This document shows, one piece after another, positions 1 through 17,251 of a DNA stretch of 21,422 nt; the first letter of the stretch is position 1; every line of letters starts with the position of its first letter. Under the pieces are notes generated by a model. The model searched no databases. It was not told the origin of the DNA and saw nothing but the letters and a program-made list of their open reading frames with translations. The DNA lies in the IMG/VR virus record IMGVR_UViG_3300022925_003753, positions 1 to 21,422 of that record; one strand, given 5' to 3'. Made by a program: the position numbers and the translations under genes. Source of the DNA: a virus.

Positions 1-3000
1 GCCTCTGATCCAGAGTGGTTTGACGAGGAGACTCGAAGAAGTGTAGTAAAATTAAACCCCTATCTTTCTATGCGTAAAGAGACCGCTAAGGAAAGAGAGG
101 AAAGGCTAAAAGATTTTGATCCTGACTATTTTATTCAAAACGCAGAGAAGGAGCTTGAGTCGGTTATCCCTTTTATGCGTTCACCTATTTTCCAGAAGTA
201 TGCCGACTTGTACGCTTCAGCCCTAACAGATCAAGAAAAGCGTTCTATCCTAGATGAGGTAAATAACATGCCGATAAAAGGGATAGTCACCAGACAGGAG
301 GTAAAGGCTTTTATAGACCGAATAAAGGCAGTTGATTTAATTAGAAACAACCCAAGTAAGGTTACAATTCAGTGGATGAACACCCAGTACAACGAGGTTG
401 CTGCTGCTCAAAGATTTTTAGAAAATTCTAATCAAAGAGAGCTTTCGAAACTCAAGAAGGAATACCTAGAAGGCTTTTATAGACTAAACGAACAGATTAG
501 AGTTGCAGGGCTAGATGCTGTTTATATGGAGTCCGATCCAAGTTACAGACCAGATATAGATTCTTTAGTTAAACAAAGAGATGCCTACATCAAGAGTTAT
601 GAAAACTTAGTTAAGAACGAAAGGCCAAAAGCTAAAAAAGTAGAGAAGAAAGAGGTTAAGAATTTCTACGACGGCCCTGAAGCGTTTGAGATAATGACCG
701 AGATTCTTAGGGAGCAAGAGAAGATGAGGATACACGAGTCCTTCCTTCGTCTTGTTAAGCTTCTTGCTATGGGTATGCCTAAGTCAGCGATGAATGCTAG
801 GATGTTCAACCTAGAGGTTTTGAGAAAAGTTCACGCTTTAGACCCAGACAACAAGGGCGGATTAATATCAAACCTGTGGTCTCATGAAAATCTAGACAGT
901 TTCTACAGAGAAACATTTCCTGCTTATGAAAAAATCATGCAGGAGGACAAGATTGGCGATGTAAAAGCATCAACTGGCGAAGAACAGTCAACAGTCCACC
1001 CTCAAGACCCTATACGGAGGAAGGTCTCATCCACAAGTAAGACCTCTGTTGCATACACAGACTCTAGTAAGGGTACAGTTACCCACGGAGATATTTTAAA
1101 TAAGTATAGGAAATTTGCATCTAGCCCCGCTGGAGCAACATTTACTGAAAGTCAGAAGTCTGCTATTTTAGCCCAACACGCGTCTAGTCAACTCCTTGCT
1201 GATTTAGGTCTTAGCCGTAGGAATCATGATGATGTATTAGATTCTCGTCAATATATCATACTAGACCCTGAGTCAGAGGAAACTACTATAAAGCTAGACA
1301 ACTCCGAGCGTGCTTCTGATATAGATGAGTACCACAATGCACTTCTAGATCTTCAGCAAAAAATGTCAGAGCCAGCCTCTCTTGCCTTGGACGACAGTGT
1401 GCTTAAGGAGATTGGCGTTCCCGATGAGGTTATCAAAACAAGGCCTACAAAGAGAGACATCTTAAGGTTCATTGAGCAGAGTAACGAGGAGCTCGATATA
1501 AAATCATCAGAATCTGGCCTCGCTCTGGATATAGATGACTACAACAAGCTATCTAAACTAGAAGCAGTCCGTAATGAGTTATTAAAAGCTAGCGATAGGT
1601 TCTATGCAGCCGAGGAGAAGCTGCACGGTGCTATGTCTGAAGAAGGTTATTTTATAACCCCTCAGATGCTTGCTCTTTCAATATGGTCTGAGTCTCCCTT
1701 AAGCTCCTCTGCCCAGGTTGCGAAAGACCCTCAAAAAGATGCTAGGGGAGGTTGGAAACCTACGATGCAAGATAACGGGCTAGACGAGTTTTTAACTGCT
1801 AATAACCCTGCTTCACAAGATAAAGAACTAAAAGGCTGGATAGATAGAGATACAGAGTTTTTATCCAACCGCATATACAAGTCTAAGAACGGTAAGGACA
1901 ATACCATATTAGACATCCTTTCAGAAATCGTACCTCAGAGAGAGAATGATTTTTCCGTAGCTCTAGAGGCATATTATGGTTTTCTATCTAAAGCACCCCT
2001 AACAGAGGTTCAAAACGCCATCCTAGATCATCTTAATAAGTTTGGTATTAAGAGTGGTATCAAGAAGTTTAAAGTTCCAGATTCTTCTACATTAGAAACA
2101 GCAATCCAGAAGCTTTCAGGTCTTTTAAGAGACGCTAGCAAGGAAAACCAGTTAAAGAAGACAAGACTTTCGTCATACTCTGGAAACGCAATTTTCATGA
2201 ATGACGGAGGTAATGTAAGAAGAAGAAGAATGAATCTCATACCTCCCGAGACATATCTTAATTTTATAGATAAGCTTATAGAGGGTGCAAAGCAAAGAGA
2301 GTACTCTCCTAGAAAATCTTTATTTCTTAGAACAAATACTGGCGTTTTAGATATTAAGCAAGAAGGTCGAGTCATCCAGACCCTTACATTTTCTGACAAC
2401 AAATCTATGGATAGGTTCGTCAAGAATATGAATGGCGTATTTTCTCAAACTAAAGAGCAGTACAAATCTTCTTTCGTAGCTCTTATGGGCTTAGATGTCG
2501 TAAGTAATAGAAAGCAGTTAGATGCAAAAAAGATAGGCGATTTAGTTATATACAAAGGCTCTCTACATAAGGTTGAGGCAAAAGGCGAAGATGGTAAAAA
2601 GGTTGTAGCTCAGGGTTTTGAAGAGATATTCAAAAACAAAGACGGAAGCTATAACTACGCAAGGTTGCAGACTGCCTTCATGATCGCCTTCGCAAAATCA
2701 GATCCAGCTTCTTTTTATGAGAGCGGAGAGGTCAATACAGTAAGCGGTCAGCCCATTGATCGTGCTGGTATATCTGCTGTTGCCAGAGATACTACCTCCA
2801 TAAATTCCATAAGCCCTGACCTTCTTGATGCCATAGGAACCGACCTTGGTGCTGGTATATCTAAAAACATACATGATGACATAAACGACTACGAGTCTCT
2901 GCAAGACCAAGCTAGTTCTGGTCAAGATCTTGATTCACCCGTTATAGAGAAAAACCTTTCAGGTTTCCAAAAGATTTTAAAATGGATTATTGGTAATCAG

Positions 3001-6000
3001 TCTTTTTCTGATGCATTCACCCGTGCAGGTGTTGAGAAGAAGTTTAAGCTTAACGAGTCTATACGAAGGAATCTAGTTAGCAGGGTAAAGCATTCGCTTC
3101 ACTCTGGCATAGTCAACAGTTACTACGAGCTAGAGCAGATGAATGAGCTCATGATCCAGGATCTTATAAAACAAGGTGTAATTGATCCTAATAACAAGGC
3201 GGATATGGACTCTGTCAGGCTCAATCAAAAGATCCGTCTCTACACGGGCAAGACAGGTGTTGAAGTAGACGAAGCAAAAGCTCAATATGAAACTCCTTTC
3301 ATGGAGAAAATTTCAGAGCTTAATGTGGAAGATCCTTTGAAGTTTTTCGGTGATTTTGCTTACGCTAGGTTTGCCAAAATAAGAAACAAATACATTCGGG
3401 AGAAGTATAAAAAGAGCCCTATGCTTGAAGGCAAAGATAAGGAAGGGAATATCCTGGGCTCAGGTATGTCAGAAAAAGAGGCTGACAGAATACTAAAAAC
3501 AACAGAAAAGCATCCTGAATTCAAAAAACTAGACAGCATAGTTAAAGACTTCGATAAAATGAACATGGATACCTTGAGAATATTGGTAGAAGGTGAGGTT
3601 CTTTCGGCAGATCAATTTGCACGACTTAAAAAGGCAGCTACTAACGAAAAGGGCGAGTTTGTATGGGCTCCATTAAGAGGTTTTGAAAAAGAGATGATCG
3701 ATGACTACCCAACTGGGTTAGACATGATCCAAGAAATGGTTCACATAGATGAAGTATCAGGAGCCCAGGGTACTGGTTCTGGTTTTAGTCAGACAGGTGG
3801 AAGACTGGCACTTACTGCAGCACTTGGTAGAACCACTAAAGCTAACTCTCATGAGATCTGGGGGAATGCGTTTCGAAGTAACCTTGAGGCTGTGCTTAGA
3901 GCTAACAAGAACAAAGAGACATCTAGAGGTCTTCTTGACTTGTTGAACATGGTAAACAAGGACGAAAAGTTAAAAAAAGAGTGGGGCGGAATCTTTCAAA
4001 TAGTTAGACCGATAGATCTCGGTAAGCACTCCGAGACTAAAAAAGTTCTAAAGCTAAGCTATGACCCTGATTTAGGGGAGGATAAGTCTTACTTTCAGGA
4101 GATGGAAGTAAATGCTCTAGAGTTAGAGGACAATGTGTTTACAGTTCGTGTAAAAGGTGAGCCTGTTTACATCATTTTTAAAGGCGATACAGGAAAGAGA
4201 ATTTCGGATGCTCTGAAGAATAAGAACAACTTTCAGATGGGCCCTATCTTAAGAGCTTTCGGAATAGCTAGCGGGTTTTTCTCCTCTATCTATACTGTTT
4301 GGAACTTGGATTTCATTCTCACTAACTTTTTCAGGGATTTTGTTAGTGGTGTGTTGAACTTAAAATCAGACCAAGAAACGAGAGACATAGCTAAACAGAT
4401 TGTCGATCCTCGATCTATGTACGGCAACTTCAAAGGTATGTATGCAGTAGCAAAAGCCCGAAGAGCTGGTAAGAGTATGGATTCCGTTCTTTCAGATTCT
4501 GACAGAAGGTTCCTAAACGAGGTCATGAAAAAAGACCGAAATGATATAACCGAGGAGGAGTTAACTAAGCTATTCCAGAACCCAGCCATGACAGCTATCG
4601 CCATGCAGAAAGCAGGCGGTAAGGTTGAGTTCTTTGGTCTTATTGATGCAGAGAAGAAAACATCTGACATTATTAGAAAGCTCAAGAGATTCCAAAAGTC
4701 TGGAAAGCCCTTCAATAGTAGAAATGCTGGAACTGTATTTTTTGACTGGGTTAATGACATCAACACAGGTGTTGAGAATGCAACTCGTATGCAGGCTTTC
4801 AAGGTTATGGTAATGAATGGTGCTACCTTTCAGAACGCTGCATATAAAGGAGGTAGAGAGGGCACTGTAGATTTTAACAGAAAAGGAAATTACACAAATG
4901 TTTTCAATGCACTATTCCCATTCTTCGGTGCTGGCATCTCAGGTAATGCTCGTCTTGTAAGAGCACTTACATCTCCCGATATGGGAGGCTCTACTGAGTT
5001 CAAGCAAAGACTTTTGATGAAAATCATTATGGGAGGTTTTGCATACTCACTGCTTATGCGTCTGTACGCAGGCGAGGATGAAGAGACTGAGGAACAGCAC
5101 TGGGATAGGCTGTCGTCATGGGAGAAAAAGCATGGGTTGAATATTTTCCTTAAACCTAACGGAGACGGGGGCAGGGTTGTAGCTCCTCTGCCTTATGGCT
5201 GGAATTTACCCTACGGAATCGGTGCTACGCTTGCAGATTTTGCGGTAGATTCAGCAGGTAAGGCAGACAGGAAGTATGGAGCTTTCGAAGCAGCGTCTGA
5301 AGTCTTAAGCAGTGCAATGGATACATTCCACCCAATGAGTGGCGGTACGGGTCTAGGTAGGGTTATACCACATGCTGTAAGACCTATTTACGAAATATCG
5401 TATAACTCTAACTTTATGGGCAATCCGATCAGACCTGAAAGAAGCCCTTTTGAAAAAGGTGAAAAGCCTGACTCTCAGCTTTATTTTAGTAGTGTAAACC
5501 CCATATCGAAAGATCTTACAAAGACTTTAAATAAATTAACAGGTGGGAACGAAAATCAATCTGGCTTTGTAGATATTTCGCCATCAACTATAGACCACAC
5601 ATTTAGCTATTTCTTCGGTACTATGGGTAGGCAGATTATGGCTATAAGTGGGTTTGGTTACGACAAGCTCAAAGGTAAAACACCTAATATCGGAAGCACT
5701 AGAGCTATACCTGTTGTATCTAGGTTGTACAAAGACGAGACAAGAGACACTCAGATGCAGTCAAGGTACTATGACCTTAGCAAACTTACTGGAAGCTACG
5801 ACACGCATTATCAATACCTTCTAAAAAATGGCAGAGGTCGAGAAGCTAAAGATTTCTACAATAAGAATAAAAACTATTTTAAGATATACTCTTTGATAAG
5901 TTCCCAGAAGAGCAGATCTGGTAAAATGAAGAGAGACATCAACAAAAGAATAAAGTCTGGAATTGATAGGTCTAAAATACAACCCCTTGAAGATCGTTTG

Positions 6001-6069
6001 TATCGTGAGAGAATAAAAGGGATGTCGTCTATCCTAAAACAAGCGAGGACGCTTGAAATCTACATATGA
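1..6069 (+). CDS. Giant phage polyvalent protein with LPD38-type region (5' partial)
   Basis: The reading frame is open from base 1. The first in-window ATG (70) has no Shine-Dalgarno, and the 23 codons before it read as ordinary coding sequence, so the true start lies upstream and the protein exceeds 2000 aa. Residues below are numbered from ATG 70. Much of it is charged and helical. Around residues 1090-1210 is the pattern 'MSEKEADRILK', 'MDTLRILVEGEVLSADQFA', 'WAPLRGFE', which I recall from phage polyvalent proteins. Residues about 1360-1690 resemble the LPD38 family: a segment reading VYIIFKGDTGKRISDALK, a hydrophobic stretch ending in FILTNFFRDFVSG (about 1396-1430), then FNRKGNYTNVFNALFPFFGA and a further hydrophobic helix (about 1651-1667) followed by an acidic patch and VAPLPYGWNLPYG. 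Such proteins are thought to be packaged and delivered with phage DNA; that role here is inference. It overlaps the portal gene by 4 bases (ATGA). I see no catalytic motif I would trust. Confidence 0.85.
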   Translation, partial: ASDPEWFDEETRRSVVKLNPYLSMRKETAKEREERLKDFDPDYFIQNAEKELESVIPFMRSPIFQKYADLYASALTDQEKRSILDEVNNMPIKGIVTRQEVKAFIDRIKAVDLIRNNPSKVTIQWMNTQYNEVAAAQRFLENSNQRELSKLKKEYLEGFYRLNEQIRVAGLDAVYMESDPSYRPDIDSLVKQRDAYIKSYENLVKNERPKAKKVEKKEVKNFYDGPEAFEIMTEILREQEKMRIHESFLRLVKLLAMGMPKSAMNARMFNLEVLRKVHALDPDNKGGLISNLWSHENLDSFYRETFPAYEKIMQEDKIGDVKASTGEEQSTVHPQDPIRRKVSSTSKTSVAYTDSSKGTVTHGDILNKYRKFASSPAGATFTESQKSAILAQHASSQLLADLGLSRRNHDDVLDSRQYIILDPESEETTIKLDNSERASDIDEYHNALLDLQQKMSEPASLALDDSVLKEIGVPDEVIKTRPTKRDILRFIEQSNEELDIKSSESGLALDIDDYNKLSKLEAVRNELLKASDRFYAAEEKLHGAMSEEGYFITPQMLALSIWSESPLSSSAQVAKDPQKDARGGWKPTMQDNGLDEFLTANNPASQDKELKGWIDRDTEFLSNRIYKSKNGKDNTILDILSEIVPQRENDFSVALEAYYGFLSKAPLTEVQNAILDHLNKFGIKSGIKKFKVPDSSTLETAIQKLSGLLRDASKENQLKKTRLSSYSGNAIFMNDGGNVRRRRMNLIPPETYLNFIDKLIEGAKQREYSPRKSLFLRTNTGVLDIKQEGRVIQTLTFSDNKSMDRFVKNMNGVFSQTKEQYKSSFVALMGLDVVSNRKQLDAKKIGDLVIYKGSLHKVEAKGEDGKKVVAQGFEEIFKNKDGSYNYARLQTAFMIAFAKSDPASFYESGEVNTVSGQPIDRAGISAVARDTTSINSISPDLLDAIGTDLGAGISKNIHDDINDYESLQDQASSGQDLDSPVIEKNLSGFQKILKWIIGNQSFSDAFTRAGVEKKFKLNESIRRNLVSRVKHSLHSGIVNSYYELEQMNELMIQDLIKQGVIDPNNKADMDSVRLNQKIRLYTGKTGVEVDEAKAQYETPFMEKISELNVEDPLKFFGDFAYARFAKIRNKYIREKYKKSPMLEGKDKEGNILGSGMSEKEADRILKTTEKHPEFKKLDSIVKDFDKMNMDTLRILVEGEVLSADQFARLKKAATNEKGEFVWAPLRGFEKEMIDDYPTGLDMIQEMVHIDEVSGAQGTGSGFSQTGGRLALTAALGRTTKANSHEIWGNAFRSNLEAVLRANKNKETSRGLLDLLNMVNKDEKLKKEWGGIFQIVRPIDLGKHSETKKVLKLSYDPDLGEDKSYFQEMEVNALELEDNVFTVRVKGEPVYIIFKGDTGKRISDALKNKNNFQMGPILRAFGIASGFFSSIYTVWNLDFILTNFFRDFVSGVLNLKSDQETRDIAKQIVDPRSMYGNFKGMYAVAKARRAGKSMDSVLSDSDRRFLNEVMKKDRNDITEEELTKLFQNPAMTAIAMQKAGGKVEFFGLIDAEKKTSDIIRKLKRFQKSGKPFNSRNAGTVFFDWVNDINTGVENATRMQAFKVMVMNGATFQNAAYKGGREGTVDFNRKGNYTNVFNALFPFFGAGISGNARLVRALTSPDMGGSTEFKQRLLMKIIMGGFAYSLLMRLYAGEDEETEEQHWDRLSSWEKKHGLNIFLKPNGDGGRVVAPLPYGWNLPYGIGATLADFAVDSAGKADRKYGAFEAASEVLSSAMDTFHPMSGGTGLGRVIPHAVRPIYEISYNSNFMGNPIRPERSPFEKGEKPDSQLYFSSVNPISKDLTKTLNKLTGGNENQSGFVDISPSTIDHTFSYFFGTMGRQIMAISGFGYDKLKGKTPNIGSTRAIPVVSRLYKDETRDTQMQSRYYDLSKLTGSYDTHYQYLLKNGRGREAKDFYNKNKNYFKIYSLISSQKSRSGKMKRDINKRIKSGIDRSKIQPLEDRLYRERIKGMSSILKQARTLEIYI

Positions 6070-8102
6070 TCGATACTAATTTAAAGCTAACAGAAGAGCA
6101 GGAGAGCGATCTCTTAAAGTACGCTTTTGAGCGTGTTGAAAGCTTGAAGATGGACAACAAGGAGAGAATCGAGTCAGATCGATTAAGCTGGAATGTCTAT
6201 CAAAACGACAGGCCAGATAGAGAGATTCTGGATTCTATATACTCAAAATCTAATGTTCCTGTCCCTATGACAACACTTGTCGTAGATCATTTCCTAGCTA
6301 GGGCTGAAGACGAGATCACAGGAACATCTCCTTTCTTTCGTTTTATGCCTCAGGGGAGGTCTGACGAAGTCAAGACCGATGCTTATGACAAGTACTTTAA
6401 TTGGAAGCTAGAAACAGTAGGTCATACTAGAGAAAGGCTTGAGGAGTCCTACCTGCACATCTTTTTACAGAGAGCCTGCATAATGAAAGCAGTCTTCGAA
6501 AATAAGACATCCCAGTGGATGGATTATGAAAGAAATGCTTTGTATAACATTGAAGAAGAATCCTTCGAAGAGATCCCCAATTACGGACCCATTATTGAGG
6601 GAGAGGCTAAGTTCATACAAGATGTAGATATTGAGACAGGGATGCCGATGTTAAGGCTTCAGGAAGACCCATCTTTTGTTATGACTCCTGGCGTTCATGA
6701 GTTTAGACCCTACCCGAATGGGGTACCTACAGAGCAAGTTATATTCAAAGGTGCAAAAAGCGTAGTCATTGACTCTGACAGGTTCTTATGCCCATCAGAT
6801 GTGGAAAGCGTTCAGGATGCTGATTTTGTTGTTGAGCTATACGACAAGCCTCTGAAGTGGGCTGAGAATATGTTTTTAAATCGTGAATGGCTTTCTTACT
6901 CAGAGTTTTCCGAGTCTGTAAAAAAGGATGCAAATAAAAGGACTAACACGAACACTGAGGGTAACTACAACTCAATACCACCCCGTGATGAATCCAAAGA
7001 GGATTTAAGTTTCGACAACAAAGAAAACCCAAGCATTCAGGTGGTTGAGTGCTGGGTTAGAAGAGATGTTTTAGGTACTGGTACGCCTCAAGATTTCTGC
7101 TTATTCTTAGAGCCTGAAACTAAAAAAGCTATCTATTACGAGTATGTAGCTAAAGTGACCCCAGATAACAGACTCCCTTACAGCACAGTTTCTATCGGAA
7201 GGCAGCGTAACAGATGGTGGGGTCCCTCTTTACCAGAAAGAATTTCAGTCTACCAAGAATTTATTGATAAGCAGTTTAACTCTGAGGCTTACAGAAATGA
7301 ACTTACCGCTAACCCTATTGTTGGTGCTAACGCCCATGCAGTCGAGGAAGAGCCTGAAGACATAGAGCTTATGCCAGGTCGTGTTTTTGAGCTTAAGGAC
7401 GGAAATACGGCAGATGACTTCATAAGTTATGTGCAGTTACCTAATGCAGATGCTAAAACACAGCAGATGATCGACTTTGTTTTTGGCTTGGTTCAGCTTT
7501 GGCTAGGAGTAAGTAATATGGCACAAGGGGATTACCAGGCACTTGCTCCTGCTAATACGGCAACAGGTGTTGAAGCTACTCTTAGGGAAGCGTCAAAGAT
7601 CGGCCGTCGATGGATGCGTAGAATAGTAAAAGGGTTCGAAGATCATTTAACTAAGTTAGTAAAGATTACAGCCACTACCTTAGATGAAGAAGAGGTTTTC
7701 GAGTACATGGAGGGCGACATTAAACAGTTTGGATCCATGACTCCTGAATCTGTTAAGAAGATGGAGATCGATGCAACTGTAATACTATCACAGGACCAAG
7801 GCCAAAGGGCTATTGAAAAAGCAAATCTCGCACTACAGGCACAGCAAAGATTCTTCGAGTCACCTCCTGAGATGCGTCCTTTCGTTCGTCCTTTGTGTAA
7901 GCGTATTTTAGATGCACTTGGGTACGAGAATGTTGATGAACTTCTTCCCGAGCAAGCCCCTGCTGATCCAAGGCAAGAGGCGGAGATAATGAAACTTTTA
8001 TCTGACGGAGCTGGATCCCCAGGGCAGGCAGAGGCAAACACTGAAGGATCTGCTGCCGTGATGGGAAACAGTAACCCTCAAGGTCAAAACCAGTATCAAT
8101 AA
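6066..8102 (+). CDS. Portal protein (head-tail connector)
   Basis: A 678-aa protein of usual portal length. Portals form the dodecameric ring at one capsid vertex through which DNA enters and leaves. Visible features are an N-terminal helical region with YSKSNVPVPMTTLVVDHFLA, which sets up the usual segment before the stem; the core around residue 380 (NRWWGPSLPERISVYQEFID); and PANTATGVEATLREASKIGR near residue 493, matching the common portal pattern in which a conserved small-residue turn is followed by a long helix. The C-terminus (from about residue 620) is acidic and then Gly/Gln/Asn-rich and low complexity, as in many portals. The start ATG overlaps the stop of the giant upstream gene (ATGA), implying translational coupling. 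There is no strong SD. The call comes from overall pattern recognition, since portals diverge strongly, but position, length and the downstream capsid genes support it. Confidence 0.85.
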   Translation: MIDTNLKLTEEQESDLLKYAFERVESLKMDNKERIESDRLSWNVYQNDRPDREILDSIYSKSNVPVPMTTLVVDHFLARAEDEITGTSPFFRFMPQGRSDEVKTDAYDKYFNWKLETVGHTRERLEESYLHIFLQRACIMKAVFENKTSQWMDYERNALYNIEEESFEEIPNYGPIIEGEAKFIQDVDIETGMPMLRLQEDPSFVMTPGVHEFRPYPNGVPTEQVIFKGAKSVVIDSDRFLCPSDVESVQDADFVVELYDKPLKWAENMFLNREWLSYSEFSESVKKDANKRTNTNTEGNYNSIPPRDESKEDLSFDNKENPSIQVVECWVRRDVLGTGTPQDFCLFLEPETKKAIYYEYVAKVTPDNRLPYSTVSIGRQRNRWWGPSLPERISVYQEFIDKQFNSEAYRNELTANPIVGANAHAVEEEPEDIELMPGRVFELKDGNTADDFISYVQLPNADAKTQQMIDFVFGLVQLWLGVSNMAQGDYQALAPANTATGVEATLREASKIGRRWMRRIVKGFEDHLTKLVKITATTLDEEEVFEYMEGDIKQFGSMTPESVKKMEIDATVILSQDQGQRAIEKANLALQAQQRFFESPPEMRPFVRPLCKRILDALGYENVDELLPEQAPADPRQEAEIMKLLSDGAGSPGQAEANTEGSAAVMGNSNPQGQNQYQ

Positions 8103-8621: not shown

Positions 8622-8861
8622 ATGGGTAAATTTAAAGTAATCACATCAAGCGATCCAGACCCTATTCCAGAGGGTCGTTCTTACCGTGTTATATCAGCAC
8701 CTCCTGAAGATAGCTCATATGCATCAAAAGACGACCTTTCAGATCTTGAAGACAGGGTTATTACAACAACTGATCTTAGCCCTCTTACATCTTCAAATGT
8801 AGATTTTTGTATATTTATAGATGGAGGCAATGCATCTAGCTCAAACTGCTCAGGGTATTAG
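8622..8861 (+). CDS. Hypothetical protein (79 aa), acidic
   Basis: I do not recognise this protein. It is acidic and Ser/Asp-rich, opening with MGKFKVITSSDPDPIPEG and closing with a short hydrophobic patch (DFCIFIDGGNASSSNCSGY). The start is well supported: AGAGGT at 8609-8614 lies seven bases before the ATG. The middle (SYASKDDLSDLEDRVI) looks like a short linker or coiled segment of the kind seen near the N-termini of tail-fibre subunits. It precedes the Mtd_N-like gene by two bases, so a small tail or fibre-associated role is a reasonable inference. Confidence 0.6.
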   Translation: MGKFKVITSSDPDPIPEGRSYRVISAPPEDSSYASKDDLSDLEDRVITTTDLSPLTSSNVDFCIFIDGGNASSSNCSGY

Positions 8862-8863
8862 AT

Positions 8864-9106
8864 ATGTCTGTCACAATAGTTATACGAAAAGATTCCGAAG
8901 AAAGGTGGGTTACTTTGAATCCTATCCCTTTTCAAGGCGAGCTTTGTCTAAACACATCCAATAAAAAAATTAAGTGCGGTGATGGATTCAACAACTGGTC
9001 GGATCTGCCATACTTAAACGATAAAGACATAGAAGATTTAAAAAACGAATACGGAAATGAAACCGATTTCCTTTCATCGTATGAACACTATAAAATAAAC
9101 CCATGA
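8864..9106 (+). CDS. Stand-alone Mtd_N-like domain protein
   Basis: This 80-aa protein carries the signature of the N-terminal domain of the Bordetella phage major tropism determinant family (Mtd_N), also found at the N-termini of many phage tail fibres. The pattern is: W15 after a basic beta strand (IVIRKDSEERW), NP at 19-20, GEL at 25-27, KCGDG at 37-41, W45 and LPY at 48-50. In the family this module anchors the receptor-binding protein to the virion. Here nothing follows except about 30 acidic residues, so the module stands alone instead of heading a long fibre. Its TGA overlaps the ATG of the 465-aa fibre-like gene (ATGA), so the two are probably translated together and may form one complex. 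A weak AGGG lies eight bases upstream of the start. Confidence 0.75.
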   Translation: MSVTIVIRKDSEERWVTLNPIPFQGELCLNTSNKKIKCGDGFNNWSDLPYLNDKDIEDLKNEYGNETDFLSSYEHYKINP

Positions 9107-10500
9107 GCGAAGCAGACACACCAACAACAGTTTTAGGAAAGATAGGTAAACAAGTAGGAGCTGAAGTAAAAACAGTCACTACCTCTTTATCTAACCACAC
9201 AACATCGACACTTAACCCGCACGCCGTTACTAAATCCCAAGTGGGTCTGGATCTTGTAGAAAATACGGCTCTATCGACATGGGCAGGTTCCGCAAATATT
9301 ACCACCCTTGGGACTATAGCTACTGGTAATATCCCTTACTCCCTTATCACAGACGCCCCGACACTTAGTGCTATAGATTCTGTTACAGGTAATTTTACAA
9401 TTGGAGGTGATCTTACTGTTAACGGTGAAACAACAACACTCAATACTCAGACTCTAGCTGTTGAAGATAATATAATCGAGGTTAACCTCACAGCTTCTGA
9501 CGGAACAGCTACTGCCTCAACTGCTGGTCTTCAGGTAAATAGAGGTGATGGTGAATCAGAAGAACAGGTAGATATTTCAACTACGAAACACCCTGATGGG
9601 TTTGTTGCTCCTACATCTAACGAAATTGACGCATGGACAAACGAAGCGATTCATAGTTTTAGTTGGACAGTTAATTCTGCGACCACATATTGGAGTGATA
9701 CCTACTCTTACACCGATGCAAGCGGCACTAAGTGGACACTTAGTACTGTTCAAGTTTCGGGTGTTGGTTCAACTTCTGTCTACGATCTTAATTTAACCCC
9801 CACTGGTGGTACTACATTTAAAATCGGTACACTTTCAAAAGCCACTGAGGAAATAGATTTTATAGATGGCTGGGGCGTAAACTATGTAGATCCAGGTCAG
9901 AATGCTTGGGCTATTTTAATAACTTACACCCCAACATTAGGCTACGCTTCAAATACTTTAGGCTGGACTGGTGATACTGGGGCTATGGCAAAAACTTCTA
10001 CAACAGCAGTTATTGATGCTTTAGAATACGGAGGAGAAACTAAGAAAGTTTCAGCCATTTACCAGGCATCTGACACAAACAGTGTTACTTGGGAGGTTCG
10101 ATTTTCTGTCGGAGGAAATATTACCCTTGAAAAAGGTTCTGAGTCTCAGGTTATAGGTACTTATGCAGGCAGCGATGTCACAATGAGTGATGGGTGGTCA
10201 ATAGCTTATTTTGAAAATTCATCGGACCCAGAATTCTGGGATATTACCGTAGATCATGCTCCAATAGTAGGAGATGGTGACAAAGCTTCTTTAATCTGGG
10301 ACGAAAACAGCGGACAGGGTTTTTGGGAGTTCAGTCTAGGTACTGAAAAAGCAGATCTTAAGGCAAAAGACATTACCGCAAGCAAGGTAACTGTAGACTC
10401 TGGAGATAGTCTTATATTAGGCTATGACGCTAACTCTGTTGCAATACCTTTAGGAACTGTAGCGGCTTTTACTAGCTCACTAGCTGCTGCCAAAGTGTAA
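9103..10500 (+). CDS. Tail-fibre-like structural protein (465 aa)
   Basis: The N-terminal motif VLGKIGKQVGAEVK (residues 10-23) is followed by LNPHAVTKSQVGLDLVENT, a classic phage tail-fibre repeat sequence. Next comes GGDLTVNGETTTLNTQTLAV (about residues 101-120), a segment common in phage fibre and structural proteins. Residues about 196-400 hold two related beta-rich blocks, each ending in DGW followed by about 20 residues and a TP/AP pair (DGW at 255 and 363). Composition is Thr/Ser/Gly-rich, as in trimeric fibres. The start overlaps the stop of the Mtd_N-like gene. The role is probably host recognition or fibre assembly. There is no enzymatic motif. The next gene begins six bases later in the same reading frame. 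Confidence 0.75.
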   Translation: MSEADTPTTVLGKIGKQVGAEVKTVTTSLSNHTTSTLNPHAVTKSQVGLDLVENTALSTWAGSANITTLGTIATGNIPYSLITDAPTLSAIDSVTGNFTIGGDLTVNGETTTLNTQTLAVEDNIIEVNLTASDGTATASTAGLQVNRGDGESEEQVDISTTKHPDGFVAPTSNEIDAWTNEAIHSFSWTVNSATTYWSDTYSYTDASGTKWTLSTVQVSGVGSTSVYDLNLTPTGGTTFKIGTLSKATEEIDFIDGWGVNYVDPGQNAWAILITYTPTLGYASNTLGWTGDTGAMAKTSTTAVIDALEYGGETKKVSAIYQASDTNSVTWEVRFSVGGNITLEKGSESQVIGTYAGSDVTMSDGWSIAYFENSSDPEFWDITVDHAPIVGDGDKASLIWDENSGQGFWEFSLGTEKADLKAKDITASKVTVDSGDSLILGYDANSVAIPLGTVAAFTSSLAAAKV

Positions 10501-10506
10501 CAGGAT

Positions 10507-10824
10507 GTGGCTTCCGTACTTTCTCAGATAGGCCATGCTATTGGGGGTGAGGTTAAAAACCTCTACTCCCGTATTAGTGGCTTAGCTGGGGATGACGCCT
10601 ATTCGGAAATTGGATATGATGCTAATGGCAATGTATCCACAGTAACTACATACACTGATTCAACCAAAGTAACCTTGGTCAAGACTAAGACACTCTCCTA
10701 CAATTCTGGATCACTTACTGGCATAGTGGTCACAGATTCCAGTGGGACTACAGTCTTAACTCAGACCCTTGCTTACGATGTAACCAGTGGTGATTTGGAT
10801 TCAGTAGAAAAGGATTACGCATAA
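10507..10824 (+). CDS. Small tail-fibre-like protein with shared N-terminal motif
   Basis: A 105-aa protein with a GTG start. The start is chosen because the N-terminus (SVLSQIGHAIGGEVKNLYSR) matches the N-terminal motif of the preceding fibre protein at the same distance from the end. The rest is repetitive beta-hairpin sequence (EIGYDANGNVSTVTTYTD; later TKTLSYNSGSLTGIVV and QTLAYDVTSGDLDSV), typical of small fibre or appendage subunits. The SD is poor: AGGA sits only one base before GTG. The frame is the same as the upstream gene, separated from it by one TAA and two codons, so reinitiation or stop readthrough are both possible. Its TAA overlaps the next ATG (TAATG). Confidence 0.65.
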   Translation: MASVLSQIGHAIGGEVKNLYSRISGLAGDDAYSEIGYDANGNVSTVTTYTDSTKVTLVKTKTLSYNSGSLTGIVVTDSSGTTVLTQTLAYDVTSGDLDSVEKDYA

Positions 10825-13628
10825 TGAGTTTTGCAGCACCAGCAAGTGGAGTAATATATCAATCTGGGAGAGACTATGACCTGTCAGACCTTGCAACTAA
10901 TATCGGAGTCACAACAACAACTGACGATGGCATAACATACTACGATTTCGGAACAAACAGGCTTCATATACAAGGCACATTGTGGCACGATCCTGACAAG
11001 GAGGTAATGTTATTTCATCACACCTCAACATCAGCAACTGCCACAACCCATGTAATTAAGGTCAAGGAAACCACTGCTTCTAGGTCATGGAATTTCATAG
11101 ATGGGTGGTCGGTGGATAGTGATGGGAATTATGTAATAACTCATACGGGACATAGTGTTGAGGCAGGAGATGCATTAAGATTCAGAAATGTTACAGGCTC
11201 CGCAATAGAGCAGAAGCAAGCCAGGGTTTTATCGGTAACCACAAACACAATAACACTAGAGCGTGGTTATTATTGGGCTGGCGTGGATTCTGATAACTCG
11301 TTTACTATTACTTCCACCATTAGTGAGTATACCAGAATACCAATCTATAACTACGGCAAGGAATACAACAATAATGGTAGAGTCGGTTATTCGGATGGTA
11401 CAGGTGTTATAATTTCTGGAGATTCTACGAGCGCATATGACCCCGATGAGCATGGATTTTTCTTCGACCAATTTTCCTTCTTATGGTCTAAGGGTGGTAC
11501 GATAGTCACTAACCGCCCTTGTTCTATAGACGGTCATTATGATATAAAAAACACCACTTTCATGTCTCCTAGGCAAGACAACTCAGGTAACTGGCAACCA
11601 GTGGAAATGAGAAGCATGGGCGATGGATGGTGGGATAACGGCAAACTGATTAACATTAATGGAGTTAACCCAAAAAACACTAAGCAAATAGATGTTGTAT
11701 TGGAAAATGCTTGCGTATCTGAAGTTTTAGATAGCTGGTATGAGTTTTCCTTAAGAAATTTTGATGCATCTAAAAATTTTGGTGTGTGTGACTTTGGGCA
11801 CGATGGCTCATATGGCGTGAAAGGAACTCTATCGGGCGGAGCTTGGAGCGGAACAACTGTTACCCACCATCATCATGATTTTGAAATCGTAAACTCTGCC
11901 ACAGGTTCAAATATAATCACTATGTGGCGCCCCGTGCAGCGCAATCCAAACGCCCAGAGGGGAAATGTTGTCACTAAAAAGGAGGTGTCTTTTAAATTTA
12001 AAGATGCGGATAGCAATCCTATTGAGGGTGTAGAATTATACTTGAAGGATAATCCTTCTGATTATGCAAAAAACGCAACCTACCCCCCAGCTACAGCTGC
12101 GGGGTCATACACCACTACTCCTACTTTGCTGAACGGGGTTATTAATGCTGATGGTTCGGTCACATATGATTACACTAACCCCTTTGAGTACAGCGCGACA
12201 TCGGATGCAAATGGTAATATATCAACCTTAAAGATTACAACCTCTGCCCATTTACACGAATATAACGCAGATGACCCTAGTGCGCAAAACGACTACCCCA
12301 ACTTATATGTAAAAGCAAATAACAGCTGGGGTCTTAGCTCATCAAATACGAGAAGGCCTGATTTTTCTGATTGGGATACTGATAATTTTGGAGGTTTCTA
12401 TCGGGTAGACCGTCGTTCAAATGATAATACGGATGCCGATGAATTTACATTCCAGTTTTGCTCTTATAACCACTCACTTTCCTCCTCTACTCAAGCCCTT
12501 AAAGGATTAGGCGAACTTGCTGTTAATTGGGTTTTGTTTGACGACCAACTCATTACTGAGACGAAAGCAACAGCAGATGGTAATAGTGAAATAGACACGC
12601 CGCAGAAATTCTACAATAGAGCAAAATCATACTTAGTGGATAATTACGCAGGAGAAACATCAACTATTGTTTCACGGGAAGGTAACTCCATTAATGCGGG
12701 CTCTTACGATGTAGTGATTGACGGAAATGTAACGGATGCTGCTTCTGCATTCGCGATTAGCGGTAACATATTAACCATCAAGGCATCCAGTTTTGTCGGA
12801 GATATTCAGACCACTGGAACAATTACTTTAAGCAACAATGCAGAAGTTATCGGAACTTATGGGGAAAACACGGTCCTGCCTTGGGAGGTTACAAATGTAG
12901 AGGCAACTGCAACCCTGCAACTTTTCAATATTACCAAAAACCTAGAGGTAGAAAACTTAGTGGTTGCAGGTACGGCAGGAAACAAAGTGACATCGTCTGG
13001 CACTTACACAGGCCAAGAAGTGAGTTTGGGTGACAATATTCGTCTGCGAATCACCTGCCAAGCAGGGACAGGGGCATTCCTCCCCTACGAGGCTTTTGGT
13101 ATCGCAACGAGTGTAGGTATTAGTTTCGAGGCAAACCAACAGGCAGACACTATCTATAACGACAACGGAATTAATGCAGACAATCTGACTACCCTGTCCG
13201 CAGACTATCCGAATGTGCAGATCGACATCTCTGATGGTGATGGGGTCGCAGATGTCAGAGAGTTCTATGCATTCTATGTAAAACAAACAACCACCTCTAC
13301 TGGCATTGGGCAATGGTTTGGTGCAATCGATGCGATTGACCACATGAACTATCGAGTGAATACTGCCATTGCTGACATCAAATTACAGAACACTGGCAAC
13401 ACTCCATTGGTTATTTCTGGTGCGAGAATATTCCGTGACAATGGCACAAGTATTCTCCACGCAGACCTATATGACCAACCAATGACGCAGGACAATGGGG
13501 AGTTGATTCAATACATCAAAGGACAAGTTGATGAGTCTTTGGAAACAAAACTACCCCCTGCAATTGCAAGTGATCCAACCATTAGTGGTATCGATAAGAA
13601 CTCCAAGTTAATCCCAGCATTATTATGA
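10824..13628 (+). CDS. Large tail fibre/tailspike-like protein (934 aa)
   Basis: A 934-aa, beta-rich, Thr/Asn/Gly-rich protein with low lysine and no membrane segments, placed among fibre genes; the best reading is a large host-recognition fibre or spike. Visible parts are an N-terminal head (to about residue 75); a segment with NFIDGWSVDSDGNY; a central region with KKEVSFKFKDADSNPIEGVEL (about 390), which looks like an Ig- or carboxypeptidase-regulatory-like beta sandwich; and a C-terminal domain (about 710-934) ending in a helical tail with IQYIKGQVDESLETKLPPAI. I see no convincing lyase, hydrolase or chaperone-autoprotease motif. AAGGA lies nine bases before the ATG, which overlaps the previous stop. 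The C-terminal quarter is more GC-rich than the rest, suggesting an exchanged receptor-binding end. Confidence 0.7.
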   Translation: MSFAAPASGVIYQSGRDYDLSDLATNIGVTTTTDDGITYYDFGTNRLHIQGTLWHDPDKEVMLFHHTSTSATATTHVIKVKETTASRSWNFIDGWSVDSDGNYVITHTGHSVEAGDALRFRNVTGSAIEQKQARVLSVTTNTITLERGYYWAGVDSDNSFTITSTISEYTRIPIYNYGKEYNNNGRVGYSDGTGVIISGDSTSAYDPDEHGFFFDQFSFLWSKGGTIVTNRPCSIDGHYDIKNTTFMSPRQDNSGNWQPVEMRSMGDGWWDNGKLININGVNPKNTKQIDVVLENACVSEVLDSWYEFSLRNFDASKNFGVCDFGHDGSYGVKGTLSGGAWSGTTVTHHHHDFEIVNSATGSNIITMWRPVQRNPNAQRGNVVTKKEVSFKFKDADSNPIEGVELYLKDNPSDYAKNATYPPATAAGSYTTTPTLLNGVINADGSVTYDYTNPFEYSATSDANGNISTLKITTSAHLHEYNADDPSAQNDYPNLYVKANNSWGLSSSNTRRPDFSDWDTDNFGGFYRVDRRSNDNTDADEFTFQFCSYNHSLSSSTQALKGLGELAVNWVLFDDQLITETKATADGNSEIDTPQKFYNRAKSYLVDNYAGETSTIVSREGNSINAGSYDVVIDGNVTDAASAFAISGNILTIKASSFVGDIQTTGTITLSNNAEVIGTYGENTVLPWEVTNVEATATLQLFNITKNLEVENLVVAGTAGNKVTSSGTYTGQEVSLGDNIRLRITCQAGTGAFLPYEAFGIATSVGISFEANQQADTIYNDNGINADNLTTLSADYPNVQIDISDGDGVADVREFYAFYVKQTTTSTGIGQWFGAIDAIDHMNYRVNTAIADIKLQNTGNTPLVISGARIFRDNGTSILHADLYDQPMTQDNGELIQYIKGQVDESLETKLPPAIASDPTISGIDKNSKLIPALL

Positions 13629-13939
13629 GCGACGAGATAGGAGAGAACAAAAAAGTATCAACCAACCTAGGCTTCGTTGCCAAAGTTTTCGGCACAGCCA
13701 TATTCATTGTTTACTCTGGAGCTATGATCTACGCTCGATTAAACGCCCTGGAGATGGAGATCCTTCGACTTAATCATGATGTTAAGATGAATGCGGAGTT
13801 TAGGATTAAATGGCCTCGCGGAGAGTTAGGGTTTTTACCTGACGATGCTGAGCAAAATATGAGGCTTACTTTTTTAGAAAAAATATCAGGAAAGCATGAA
13901 GAGCTTTTAGATAAGATGCGTTACGGAGGAGGGGAGTGA
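13625..13939 (+). CDS. One-TM coiled-coil membrane protein (possible inner-membrane spanin)
   Basis: A 104-aa protein. The N-terminal 16 residues are polar and charged, residues about 17-39 form a membrane segment (VAKVFGTAIFIVYSGAMIY), and residues 40-55 continue as a probable coiled coil (LNALEMEILRLNHDVKMN). A conserved-looking stretch, KWPRGELGFLPDDAEQNMRL, follows, and then a second helix. Topology (short N-terminus inside, helical domain outside) fits an inner-membrane spanin, but similar small proteins also occur near phage fibre genes, so the function is open. The ATG overlaps the stop of the large fibre gene (ATGA), and its own stop lies two bases before the ATG of the holin-like gene. 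There is no SD, so expression probably depends on coupling. Confidence 0.6.
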   Translation: MSDEIGENKKVSTNLGFVAKVFGTAIFIVYSGAMIYARLNALEMEILRLNHDVKMNAEFRIKWPRGELGFLPDDAEQNMRLTFLEKISGKHEELLDKMRYGGGE

Positions 13940-13940
13940 A

Positions 13941-14405
13941 ATGGGTGAGATCCTTCTTATGCTTCTTACTGGAGGCGGTTCTACTGCTATGGGGGCTATG
14001 CTCAAAGGTGGGTTCGGACTTCTATTTGAGAGTCGCCGCCAGAAGCACGAGCTCGAAATTGCAAGGGAAAGTAGAGCAAATGAAAATTTCATTAAGCTAC
14101 AAGCTAAGCTGGCTGAAGGAGGTAATAATGAGTTCAGGGATTTTTCTCGTCGCATTATTGCTTTTATGGGGATTGGCACTCTTTGCTTTTGCGTCTTGCT
14201 CTGTACCATATTCCCACAAGCGGAATTCCTTTCTATCACTAACGCCAACGGCGAAGGAAGAACAGAATTGCTGTTCGGAATCATCTCTTGGCCAGCAAGC
14301 CAAGACCCCATCACGCTCAGTAGCGGACACCTTGCATACATGGGGCAAACAGCCCTTATGGGAATCCTCGGCTTTTATTTCGGGCCATCGCCTCACAGAC
14401 GATAA
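13941..14405 (+). CDS. Multi-TM holin-like membrane protein
   Basis: A 154-aa protein with a Gly-rich, moderately hydrophobic N-terminus (residues 2-29), a charged amphipathic helix (30-60: ESRRQKHELEIARESRANEN), a clear membrane segment at 72-92 (IIAFMGIGTLCFCVLLCTIF) and another at 130-147, ending in GFYFGPSPHRR. This layout (TM, charged helix, two TMs) resembles 3-TM phage holins, including the gene-transfer-agent release type. The start is ATG 13941, not GTG 13936 in another frame: GGAGGAGG at 13925-13932 is eight bases from the ATG but only three from the GTG. From residue 63 on, the same DNA encodes a second protein in the +1 frame. The stop abuts the next ATG directly. Confidence 0.65.
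   Translation: MGEILLMLLTGGGSTAMGAMLKGGFGLLFESRRQKHELEIARESRANENFIKLQAKLAEGGNNEFRDFSRRIIAFMGIGTLCFCVLLCTIFPQAEFLSITNANGEGRTELLFGIISWPASQDPITLSSGHLAYMGQTALMGILGFYFGPSPHRR
14116..14123 (+). promoter_or_regulatory. Perfect Shine-Dalgarno for an embedded gene
   Basis: AAGGAGGT sits inside the holin-like gene, with the ATG of the +1-frame lipoprotein-like ORF (14128) five bases beyond the GGAGG core. It is the strongest ribosome-binding site in the window and decides the start of the embedded gene. Confidence 0.7.
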
Positions 14406-14409
14406 ATGA
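14128..14409 (+). CDS. Embedded +1-frame lipoprotein-like ORF (candidate o-spanin, Rz1-like)
   Basis: A 93-aa ORF lying almost wholly inside the holin-like gene, in its +1 frame. The N-terminus is a hydrophobic signal-like segment (residues 5-22, IFLVALLLLWGLALFAFA) followed by FASC, giving a possible lipobox with Cys24 and Ser25 after it; the mature part would be about 70 polar residues. A perfect AAGGAGGT precedes the ATG at optimal spacing, and the TGA overlaps the next gene's ATG (ATGA). Outer-membrane spanin subunits such as lambda Rz1 are small lipoproteins encoded in the +1 frame within another lysis gene, so the architecture matches. Points against: there is no N-terminal positive charge, the lipobox is only approximate, proline content is modest, and the host gene looks like a holin instead of an inner-membrane spanin. 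Confidence 0.55.
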   Translation: MSSGIFLVALLLLWGLALFAFASCSVPYSHKRNSFLSLTPTAKEEQNCCSESSLGQQAKTPSRSVADTLHTWGKQPLWESSAFISGHRLTDDK

Positions 14410-15811: not shown

Positions 15812-17251
15812 ATGGCTATTAAAACAACTCAAGGGGCAGCACAACCAGGTATTGGTAATGTTGACCTTCTTTCAAATAATACTAACTACACTACAGATAT
15901 TTTCGCTAACGGCGATTTGCGTACACGGCTTTGGTCGGAGCTCGTAACTCGTGATGCTCGTGAAAAGAATGTATTCTCCAAATTCATCGGATCTGAAGGA
16001 TCGGCTGCTCCTGTAGTTGAAAAAAGAGATCTCTCCGCTGGTGGATCAGATAAAGTGACTTTCACTTCTGTCGCTCCTATCCGTGGTCAAGGTGTTCGTG
16101 GGGAAGCAATCCTCAAAAACAACACTGGTAAGTTAAAGTTTGGTACTTTCAGTGTGGAGGTTGACTTAATTCGTCACGCCGTCGCATGGACGCAAGTTAT
16201 CAAACTTATGAGATTCACTGGTAAAACCATCGATCAGCTTTCCGCTGAGGTTATGTCCGAGTGGGCAGGGCGTACAGAGCAAGACCACATTCAGTCGTGC
16301 ATTCGTGACACTTGCTTAAACAACAGTACCTCCAACTTGATCTCCGACTACGGAGCTAATGGGGCAGTTACCTACGCTGAAGGTCTTAGTACCGACATCA
16401 TTCAGGAAGCAAAACAAGCCTTGATCGCTCAAGGCGGTGAGCCCATGAATGTTGGAGGGGATGATAAAACCGAGATTCCTGGCTACCTGTTCTTCGCCCC
16501 TGACGCAGTGCTTCGTCCACTTCGCAGTGATCCCGATTACATGGAAGCTATTCTCCAAGCTGACGAGCGTAGCAGTTCTAACAAACTGTACAGCGGTAAC
16601 TATGCAATGTGGGACGGCAATATGATTGCTAACCATAATGTAATCATCGACACTGCTGACGGTCGTCAAGGTTCACCCCTTCTTCCAACAGCTCTCGTTA
16701 CTACTCAAAGCACTGTTCAGGCTGCTGCTCTAAATCTAGGTGGGGATACATTCGCTAACTTCATTGGCTTTGATTCCAACATTCCTGGTGGTGGTGGTGC
16801 ACAGCATGTTGTGCCTAATGGTGGAGGCAATCTTCTGATTGTACAGCCTAATGGTACTTACTACAGCGTAAGTTACGCTAACATCAGTGCCGATGGGTCC
16901 ACAATCAACGGACTCGCCGACCTTGGTACTGCTCAGGCTAACAATGCTGCTGCTATTGCAGGAGTTACGCTTCCAGTAGGTACTGTTATCTACCAAGCAA
17001 ACTCCGCATCTACTCCTATTGGATATGCAGTAGCAATGGGTAAATCTGCACTATACTACGCAAAAGGTGGTGTATTCAATGAACAGATTTTCCACTATGA
17101 TGATTTTGCTAATAGTGGTAATAATGCACACTTATCTGCTGTAGGTGTTCAGTCCGTTTACGGAATGGCTACTTACCAAGACACCAATGGAAGAATCCCT
17201 GGTGTGCAGTTAATTGAGGCAGTTCGTCAGATCCCTGGCTTCTCATTCTAA
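15812..17251 (+). CDS. Major capsid protein, N4-gp56/DUF4043 family
   Basis: A 479-aa protein matching the N4-gp56 (DUF4043) major capsid family, which has the HK97-like fold. Characteristic segments are NGDLRTRLWSELVTRDAREK leading into FSKFIG (residues 33-60), GGSDKVTFTSVAPIRGQGVR (about 77-96), then LKFGTFSVEVDLIRHAVAW (about 109-127) and a conserved helix with EWAGRTEQDHI (about 150-160). The C-terminal half contains Gly-rich insertions (NIPGGGGAQHVVPNGGGN, about 330-347), probably an extra surface domain. Arginine is encoded mostly by CGT (12 of 17), unlike neighbouring genes, as expected of the most highly expressed gene. The start is preceded by an AT-rich leader (ATTAAATAAA) with no SD. 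A strong terminator follows within 30 bases of the stop. Confidence 0.92.
   Translation: MAIKTTQGAAQPGIGNVDLLSNNTNYTTDIFANGDLRTRLWSELVTRDAREKNVFSKFIGSEGSAAPVVEKRDLSAGGSDKVTFTSVAPIRGQGVRGEAILKNNTGKLKFGTFSVEVDLIRHAVAWTQVIKLMRFTGKTIDQLSAEVMSEWAGRTEQDHIQSCIRDTCLNNSTSNLISDYGANGAVTYAEGLSTDIIQEAKQALIAQGGEPMNVGGDDKTEIPGYLFFAPDAVLRPLRSDPDYMEAILQADERSSSNKLYSGNYAMWDGNMIANHNVIIDTADGRQGSPLLPTALVTTQSTVQAAALNLGGDTFANFIGFDSNIPGGGGAQHVVPNGGGNLLIVQPNGTYYSVSYANISADGSTINGLADLGTAQANNAAAIAGVTLPVGTVIYQANSASTPIGYAVAMGKSALYYAKGGVFNEQIFHYDDFANSGNNAHLSAVGVQSVYGMATYQDTNGRIPGVQLIEAVRQIPGFSF

Follow-up and report, generated by a model that had tools for sequence, protein, structure and literature searches.

The small protein encoded directly upstream of the first fibre gene of this virus is, with a probability that we put at about 60%, a virion adaptor: its Mtd_N domain would take the DGG tail of the protein encoded before it, and its own C-terminal tail would take the N-terminal tag of fibre 1. 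An earlier note, made from the sequence alone, had described the protein as the anchor of a split fibre. The free-standing protein was borne out, whereas the label "anchor" looks too narrow, as the evidence points to a two-joint adaptor between the DGG protein and the fibre tag. The Mtd_N half would be a socket into which the 79-aa protein (8622-8861) inserts its DGG-ending C-terminus, and the C-terminal tail of the adaptor would act as a second plug, receiving the ILGKIGxxVGxEVK tag of fibre 1 (9103-10500). Because a similar tail closes fibre 1 and a tagged 105-aa protein comes next, the cassette reads as a head-to-tail chain, the order of which would be DGG protein, Mtd_N adaptor, fibre 1, 105-aa protein and 934-aa protein. 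We infer physical docking at the joints, a place of the adaptor in the virion and this order in the particle from the observations given below.

Table 1 Features of the Mtd_N and fibre cassette, with the portal and major capsid genes.
Feature	Position	Strand	Evidence or remark
Portal, SU10 type	6066-8102		Pfam/PHROG
79-aa protein with C-terminal DGG tail (proposed plug 1)	8622..8861	+	
DGG codons GAT GGA GGC	8820..8828	+	end 35 nt before the ATG of the Mtd_N gene
80-aa protein, open reading frame	8864-9106	+	Mtd_N domain and 28-aa tail
Mtd_N domain, residues 1-52 (proposed socket 1)	8864..9019	+	profile, predicted fold
Conserved C-terminal tail, residues 53-80 with EYGNETDF, and stop (proposed plug 2)	9020..9106	+	alignments
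Fibre 1, 465 aa, start overlapping the stop of the Mtd_N gene	9103..10500	+	ORF, PHROG
N-terminal tag of fibre 1, MSEADTPTTVLGKIGKQVGAEVK (proposed socket 2)	9103..9171	+	conserved among tag fibres
Tail of fibre 1, PLGTVAAFTSSLAAAKV, and stop (proposed second copy of plug 2)	10447..10500	+	by eye; tails of relatives
105-aa protein starting with the same kind of tag, VASVLSQIGHAIGGEVK (proposed second socket 2)	10507..10824	+	
934-aa protein, last of the fibre cassette, without tag	10824..13628	+	
Major capsid protein	15812-17251		Pfam/PHROG

The window, by which we mean the whole 21,422-base virus record, contains several other genes. The end of a giant open reading frame (ORF) at 70-6069, which is open and comprises 3000 aa within locus L004, carries an LPD38 large polyvalent protein domain (E 3.7e-31), and its product is probably an ejected protein. 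Behind small membrane-type proteins, two long ORFs overlap in different frames (13936-14409 and 13941-14405) and are possibly lysis genes. No tRNA or Rfam matches were obtained in the 21,422-nt window.

Mtd_N domain and tail of the 80-residue protein

The signature pointed out in the earlier note is present in the 80-aa protein, with W15, NP at residues 19-20, GEL at 25-27, KCGDG at 37-41, W45 and LPY at 48-50. The homology to Mtd_N proposed on this basis, against which a lack of HMM or structural similarity had been named as counter-evidence, was found by profile and by fold, and the two agree. Residues 7-41 match the Pfam family Mtd_N (PF18454) with an E-value of 2.6e-5 and 24.5 bits, which for this protein alone is slightly under the curated cut-off of 26.3 bits. 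An Mtd_N match at E<=0.01 was obtained for each of the 22 aligned family members, among them the 80-aa protein (best 6.7e-14), and the profile of the family found hyaluronidases in the PDB (best E 1.2e-5). Among the PHROG families, 13 were matched by the 80-aa protein at E<=0.01, nine of which by all 22 family members. These families are 182-2079 positions long and are labelled as tail fibre, tail spike, hyaluronidase, or tail or structural protein; the matches fall at their N-terminal ends, save for phrog_11419 (97-145).

The predicted model of the protein has a mean pLDDT of 76.6, with about 85 for residues 11-50. The top Foldseek matches of this model were phage hyaluronidases (2c3f, E 1.7e-3, probability 1.00), followed by Mtd (1yu1, E 0.16, probability 0.96; the Mtd variants span probabilities of 0.96-0.51), none of them reaching E<=0.001. 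Using VIA-align, the model gave a Z of 6.9 with 2yvv (52 aligned residues, 3.4 Å) and of 4.6 with 1yu0 (44 aligned residues, 2.1 Å), middling values that weigh more because the sequence match agrees with them. Native Mtd and HylP are trimers, and the 80-aa protein would likewise form a trimer. The model of the Mtd_N part (8864-9019) also resembles the trimerisation domain of collagen XV/XVIII with Z values of 4-5 (for collagen XVIII 5.1, with 50 aligned residues at 3.0 Å), a likeness that suggests a common trimer-forming arrangement.

The chain stops 28 residues past the Mtd_N domain and has no long receptor-binding or enzymatic part. Residues E62, G64 and F69 of this tail, a feature absent from the earlier note, are invariant in all 22 aligned rows, and helices are predicted at residues 53-63 and 66-78, albeit with low confidence (pLDDT about 60).

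Conservation of the Mtd_N protein as a separate gene

As described previously, the TGA of the 80-aa gene (9104-9106) overlaps the ATG (9103-9105) of the 465-aa ORF (9103-10500) in the form of ATGA. Relatives were collected by a portal-based search, which yielded 80 loci including two further contigs nearly identical to the window, by an alignment search with the small protein, which yielded 30 loci, and by a DNA scan for GKIGxKVG, which yielded 120 stretches, some of them on contigs shared with the small-protein search. In the scan, LGKIGxKVG was found near the start of 44 ORFs. Of these, 43 have another ORF within reach upstream, and in every one of the 43 a stand-alone Mtd_N ORF comes directly before the tag ORF, in agreement with the earlier proposal that anchor and shaft are separate chains; 38 cases were recognised automatically and five after correction of a shadow frame, and the cases are not deduplicated, the 38 automatic ones comprising 18 tails that are more than 20% different. 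Longer chains headed by Mtd_N, to which the signature had been ascribed, exist elsewhere and are fused in L101-L104, L107 and L108, and an intact fusion in all relatives was not found.

Nine of the 80 portal loci have a stand-alone Mtd_N ORF followed by a tag fibre. The tag pattern fires in eight of these, and the variant tag of the ninth (L067, IFGKVGKYVGEE) was recognised by eye. Neither gene was present in 24 loci having at least 5 kb of downstream sequence and in 47 having less. No locus with only one of the two was detected among the 80, in a comparison which a strongly diverged tag could escape. Given this both-or-neither pattern, the Mtd_N gene and the tag fibre seem to move as a unit. 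The suggestion that anchor and shaft are exchangeable found no support, as close anchors go with related fibres. When we searched for fibre exchange on a fixed anchor, 0/30 pairs of Mtd_N proteins with at least 85% identity, pairs that are not independent of each other, fell below the limit set for unrelated fibre middles. The identity measure used the shorter sequence as divisor and had a median of 0.35-0.38 in distant pairs; the pairs have loci in common.

DGG tails directly before Mtd_N

In the window, the tail of the 79-aa protein reads FIDGGNASSSNCSGY, and the equivalent upstream ORFs of the relatives carry tails of the kind CYVLDGGDSGSQPCDDS. Among 44 distinct Mtd_N proteins preceding a tag fibre, DGG ends the directly preceding ORF in 37 and is found in an ORF slightly further up in two. 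The five cases with none (L022, L030, L073, L079 and L098) are adaptors lengthened at the N-terminus by about 46-60 aa, for example VGRSVDIFVLKSTYEAGFAEL, and their preceding ORFs end, for example, in SKNSGGFGPGDLTDSTITVT; this added segment may stand in for the DGG joint. Three of eight apparently long forms of the adaptor were start-codon artefacts with DGG before them.

The idea of a DGG tail arose in loci L084-L108 and was first checked in 10 isolates and then in loci selected solely by a DNA pattern for KVGDGxxxW. The 120 stretches obtained in this way contained 138 Mtd_N-matching ORFs in 107 loci, one of which (L181) belongs to the kin of the window; 123 had an upstream ORF, and 89 remained after removal of similar tails. 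DGG was found within the last 40 residues of 37 of these 89 upstream ORFs compared to 25 of 937 background ORFs (p 6e-27), the lowest p among all tripeptides present in at least three tails. When each tail was shuffled, the number with DGG averaged 4.7 and never exceeded 13 in 1000 trials. The linkage is positional: DGG occurs in 30/80 ORFs at position -1 relative to Mtd_N, compared to 4/70, 5/74 and 6/88 at positions -4 to -2 and 2/65, 1/68 and 0/56 at positions +1 to +3. Mtd_N ORFs themselves end in DGG in 6/17 cases if the next ORF is again Mtd_N, and in 4/64 cases otherwise (p 0.005; with a looser motif 11/17 versus 9/64, p 8e-5). Since DGG precedes short Mtd_N ORFs of up to 125 aa (7/17), middle ones (4/13) and long or open ones (26/59), the rule is not special to stand-alone Mtd_N. 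The strict motif is missing in 52 of the 89 upstream ORFs, and the loose form is also missing in 36; the upstream ORFs without DGG include contigs resembling the cyanomyovirus S-MS29.

Two loci encode Mtd_N-DGG-Mtd_N in one short chain (L106, 7746-8192, on a 243-kb contig, and L230, 7101-7553). In the model of such a natural chain, the summary values give a pLDDT below 50 for the DGG linker (73-86), so that the model cannot show docking. A scan of bacterial genomes gave 118 stretches with three Mtd_N ORFs in two loci, and DGG in neither of the two upstream ORFs, a sample with no power.

We also read 16 named phages, a hand-chosen and non-random set, in 10 of which DGG lies near the end of the ORF directly preceding at least one Mtd_N gene. 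These are crAss001, Musetta, Hubbs, phiST, AhaSv, Summit, Catfish, Persistence, Pointis and the TM7 phage, with Musetta and Hubbs being close to one another. Their DGG proteins include a polysaccharide deacetylase, chi-like phage tail proteins and a 70-aa protein. Chains were seen in the TM7 phage and in Pointis, where IDGGSV or IDGGTP closes an Mtd_N protein and the gene behind it again encodes Mtd_N. In crAss001, the tail of gp24 carries DGG, and Mtd_N heads both gp25 and gp26; a relative of known structure was not found for gp24 by sequence. DGG before Mtd_N was not found in S-CBS3, S-MS29, ReqiPepy6, Javan458, Fazel and BPP-1. Look-alikes in Javan458 (ILDGRRDR), BPP-1 (DLGGIA), Fazel (ILDGNPE) and also S-CBS3 were not counted.

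Like tails of the Mtd_N protein and fibre 1

Fibre 1 matches a PHROG virion structural protein (E 2.1e-6) and gave no match against Pfam. When 1,948 tails were ranked with a profile built from 18 adaptor tails, eight of the 13 fibre-1 tails came out among the first ten; the other two places went to background ORFs, of which one, at 51 bits, is probably a family member's tail. The regular expression G[DNT].{2,3}F.{3}[FLYV], picked after inspection of the tails, matches 18/18 adaptor tails, 12/13 fibre-1 tails and 6/1935 others. The ORF behind fibre 1, where visible, usually encodes a protein of some 100 aa that opens with such a tag. As both the adaptor and fibre 1 end in a like tail, two kinds of protein with this tail precede a protein that starts with the tag.

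Two regions of the 934-aa protein resemble phage proteins, residues 538-710 gene 54 of Synechococcus phage Syn5 (38%) and residues 739-881 a protein of a Curvibacter phage (39%). Searches of named phages by tblastn gave no match at E 1e-5 with the portal and with the 465-aa fibre, and none with a relative of the 105-aa protein as query. In loci L119-L238, no tag ORF was detected using an expression that was too strict.

Alternative explanations

Several other readings of these data were weighed against the adaptor. Splitting of an Mtd_N-headed fibre gene by a frameshift or a sequencing error, or joining of its halves through programmed frameshifting, deserves hardly any credence: the overlap of stop and start as ATGA would suit it, but the region recurs on two further contigs at 99.95 and 99.99% identity, and in the relatives the gap between Mtd_N gene and fibre ranges from -4 to +27 with a frame offset of 0, 1 or 2, a variation that leaves no fixed frameshift. 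Since, in addition, the tail behind the domain is conserved and the fibre opens with a conserved tag of its own, this reading was dropped. It is likewise very improbable that DGG is the mere translation of the ribosome-binding site (GGAGG) of the downstream gene. Part of the DGG signal does overlap such sites, as GGAGG is contained in 14 of the 18 DGG motifs that end within 24 nt of the start. The enrichment, however, stays for motifs ending at least 25 nt upstream (27/76 before Mtd_N versus 13/555 in close gene pairs, p 6e-18), and any DGG is found in 36/76 cases before Mtd_N compared to 19/555 close gene pairs without Mtd_N, a control that contradicts the ribosome-binding site as a full explanation. 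In the window, the DGG codons lie 35 nt before the ATG and are thus too far away to be the ribosome-binding site of the Mtd_N gene.

The remaining two readings are unlikely rather than improbable. If the Mtd_N protein were a factor for trimerisation or assembly, the DGG tails could be turns that close a trimer, and the operon neighbours would not dock at all. The likeness to the collagen XVIII domain (Z 5.1) leaves such a role open, and the available text of a study on T4 gp34 gives residues 1233-1244 (FVQVFDGGNPPQ) as a beta-layer in a trimeric fibre (PMC4786415). What makes this unlikely is the concentration of DGG just before Mtd_N, with 0-7% at other positions, and the low share of DGG ends (4/64) among Mtd_N ORFs that have no Mtd_N next to them; in the fused relatives, moreover, Mtd_N is kept in the fibre chain, which by inference does not fit a factor that leaves after assembly. 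Slightly less likely again is that the genes travel together as an inherited cassette and that the linkage reflects common descent, with no contact of the products. The kin of the window, in which homologous genes seem to move together, speaks for this reading, but the upstream DGG proteins of the pattern-chosen loci vary in length and kind after removal of similar tails, and those of the isolates are diverse. The two-joint adaptor is the most economical reading.

An apparent second tail-tag pairing and a possible connector code

A scan for QAIGxDIK gave 90 stretches. The ORF before the QAIGxDIK protein ends in a tail of the type D-x4-Y-x2-A-K, and a D five residues before the Y is present in 17 of 18 deduplicated tails of this group (60 before deduplication) compared to 44 of 1865 others. 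In these other phages (L365-L454), tails of the kind DFVADYTTAKA or DPLAYYILAKG precede proteins that open with (A)QAIGxDIK, and two tag proteins are often consecutive, as an apparent further tail-to-head pair. The tail profiles of the window's kin and of the QAIGxDIK phages do not recognise each other (0/8 and 1/18), and a single merged profile of both failed in both directions. Locus L172 encodes a stand-alone Mtd_N protein of 85 aa with LDGGTV before it, followed by a protein starting with LSLQTRLSDLITAVGTDIKQL. The tail of this Mtd_N protein, PSLALLYENAKV (LLYENAKV), has Y-x2-A-K and lacks D-x4-Y, which is suggestive of a link between the two tail-tag systems.

In uncultured phages, fibre genes vary and are difficult to annotate, and the joining of separate fibre chains is often unresolved, fibres being flexible in cryo-EM. 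On the basis of these sequence patterns, we tentatively propose, at slightly less than even odds, a connector code common to phages of very different hosts, in which a DGG tail would enter an Mtd_N socket and a second kind of tail, proposed to have an aromatic residue that in one group is followed by AK, would enter an N-terminal tag of the form (I/L)xxIGx... Fibres would then be daisy chains and stand-alone Mtd_N proteins converters between the two kinds of joint. If this is true, the order of fibre proteins could be read from sequence by a short tail-and-head rule, and the Mtd_N domain would gain a concrete role, none having been found established in the literature examined. For isolates, the pairing rule gives direct predictions that can be tested with peptides.

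Comparison with known systems

By profile and fold, the Mtd_N domain of Mtd from Bordetella phage BPP-1 and of the streptococcal phage hyaluronidases is also present in the 80-aa protein. In those proteins, the domain heads a long receptor-binding chain, whereas the 80-aa protein is mostly domain, has a tail of its own and leaves the fibre to a separate chain. Unlike the window, BPP-1 and Javan458 are without a strict DGG tail upstream. Free-standing Mtd_N proteins of 115 aa, annotated as hypothetical or minor tail protein, are also found in the Microbacterium phages Musetta (gp45) and Hubbs (gp40), where the preceding ORF ends in LDGGTP; their tails and the next proteins differ from those of the window. 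The available text on AXL1 reads the Mtd_N of gp44 as a domain involved in receptor specificity (PMC9206674).

Regarding fibres built from several chains, the accessible part of one report describes how separate fibre chains of K1-5, G7C and Klebsiella phages are linked via an adaptor or a short conserved terminal peptide (PMC6872550). The window shares with them a separate fibre chain and a short terminal peptide (LGKIGxKVG) beside a candidate adaptor. As far as that report's available text goes, however, their joints consist of a T4gp10-like domain and the N-terminal peptides of the second fibre, whereas a C-terminal DGG tail and an Mtd_N socket are proposed here. Pfam gave no match to a T4gp10-like domain in 16 ORFs of the window, a search which a diverged copy could escape. 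In the hub of crAss001, the trimeric first fibre protein gp22 docks N-terminally and further, less well resolved chains are added, according to the available text (PMC10172136). The DGG tail of gp24 followed by Mtd_N in gp25 and gp26 resembles the window, and, as gp24-gp26 are absent from its main text, that paper does not describe the joint proposed here. Among the matches listed in the open-licence literature, we found no description of a DGG-Mtd_N pairing or of a stand-alone Mtd_N adaptor. The Mtd_N domain is already known, as are multi-chain fibres with adaptors and short conserved peptides; if the binding is real, it is the broader DGG-Mtd_N rule that would matter.
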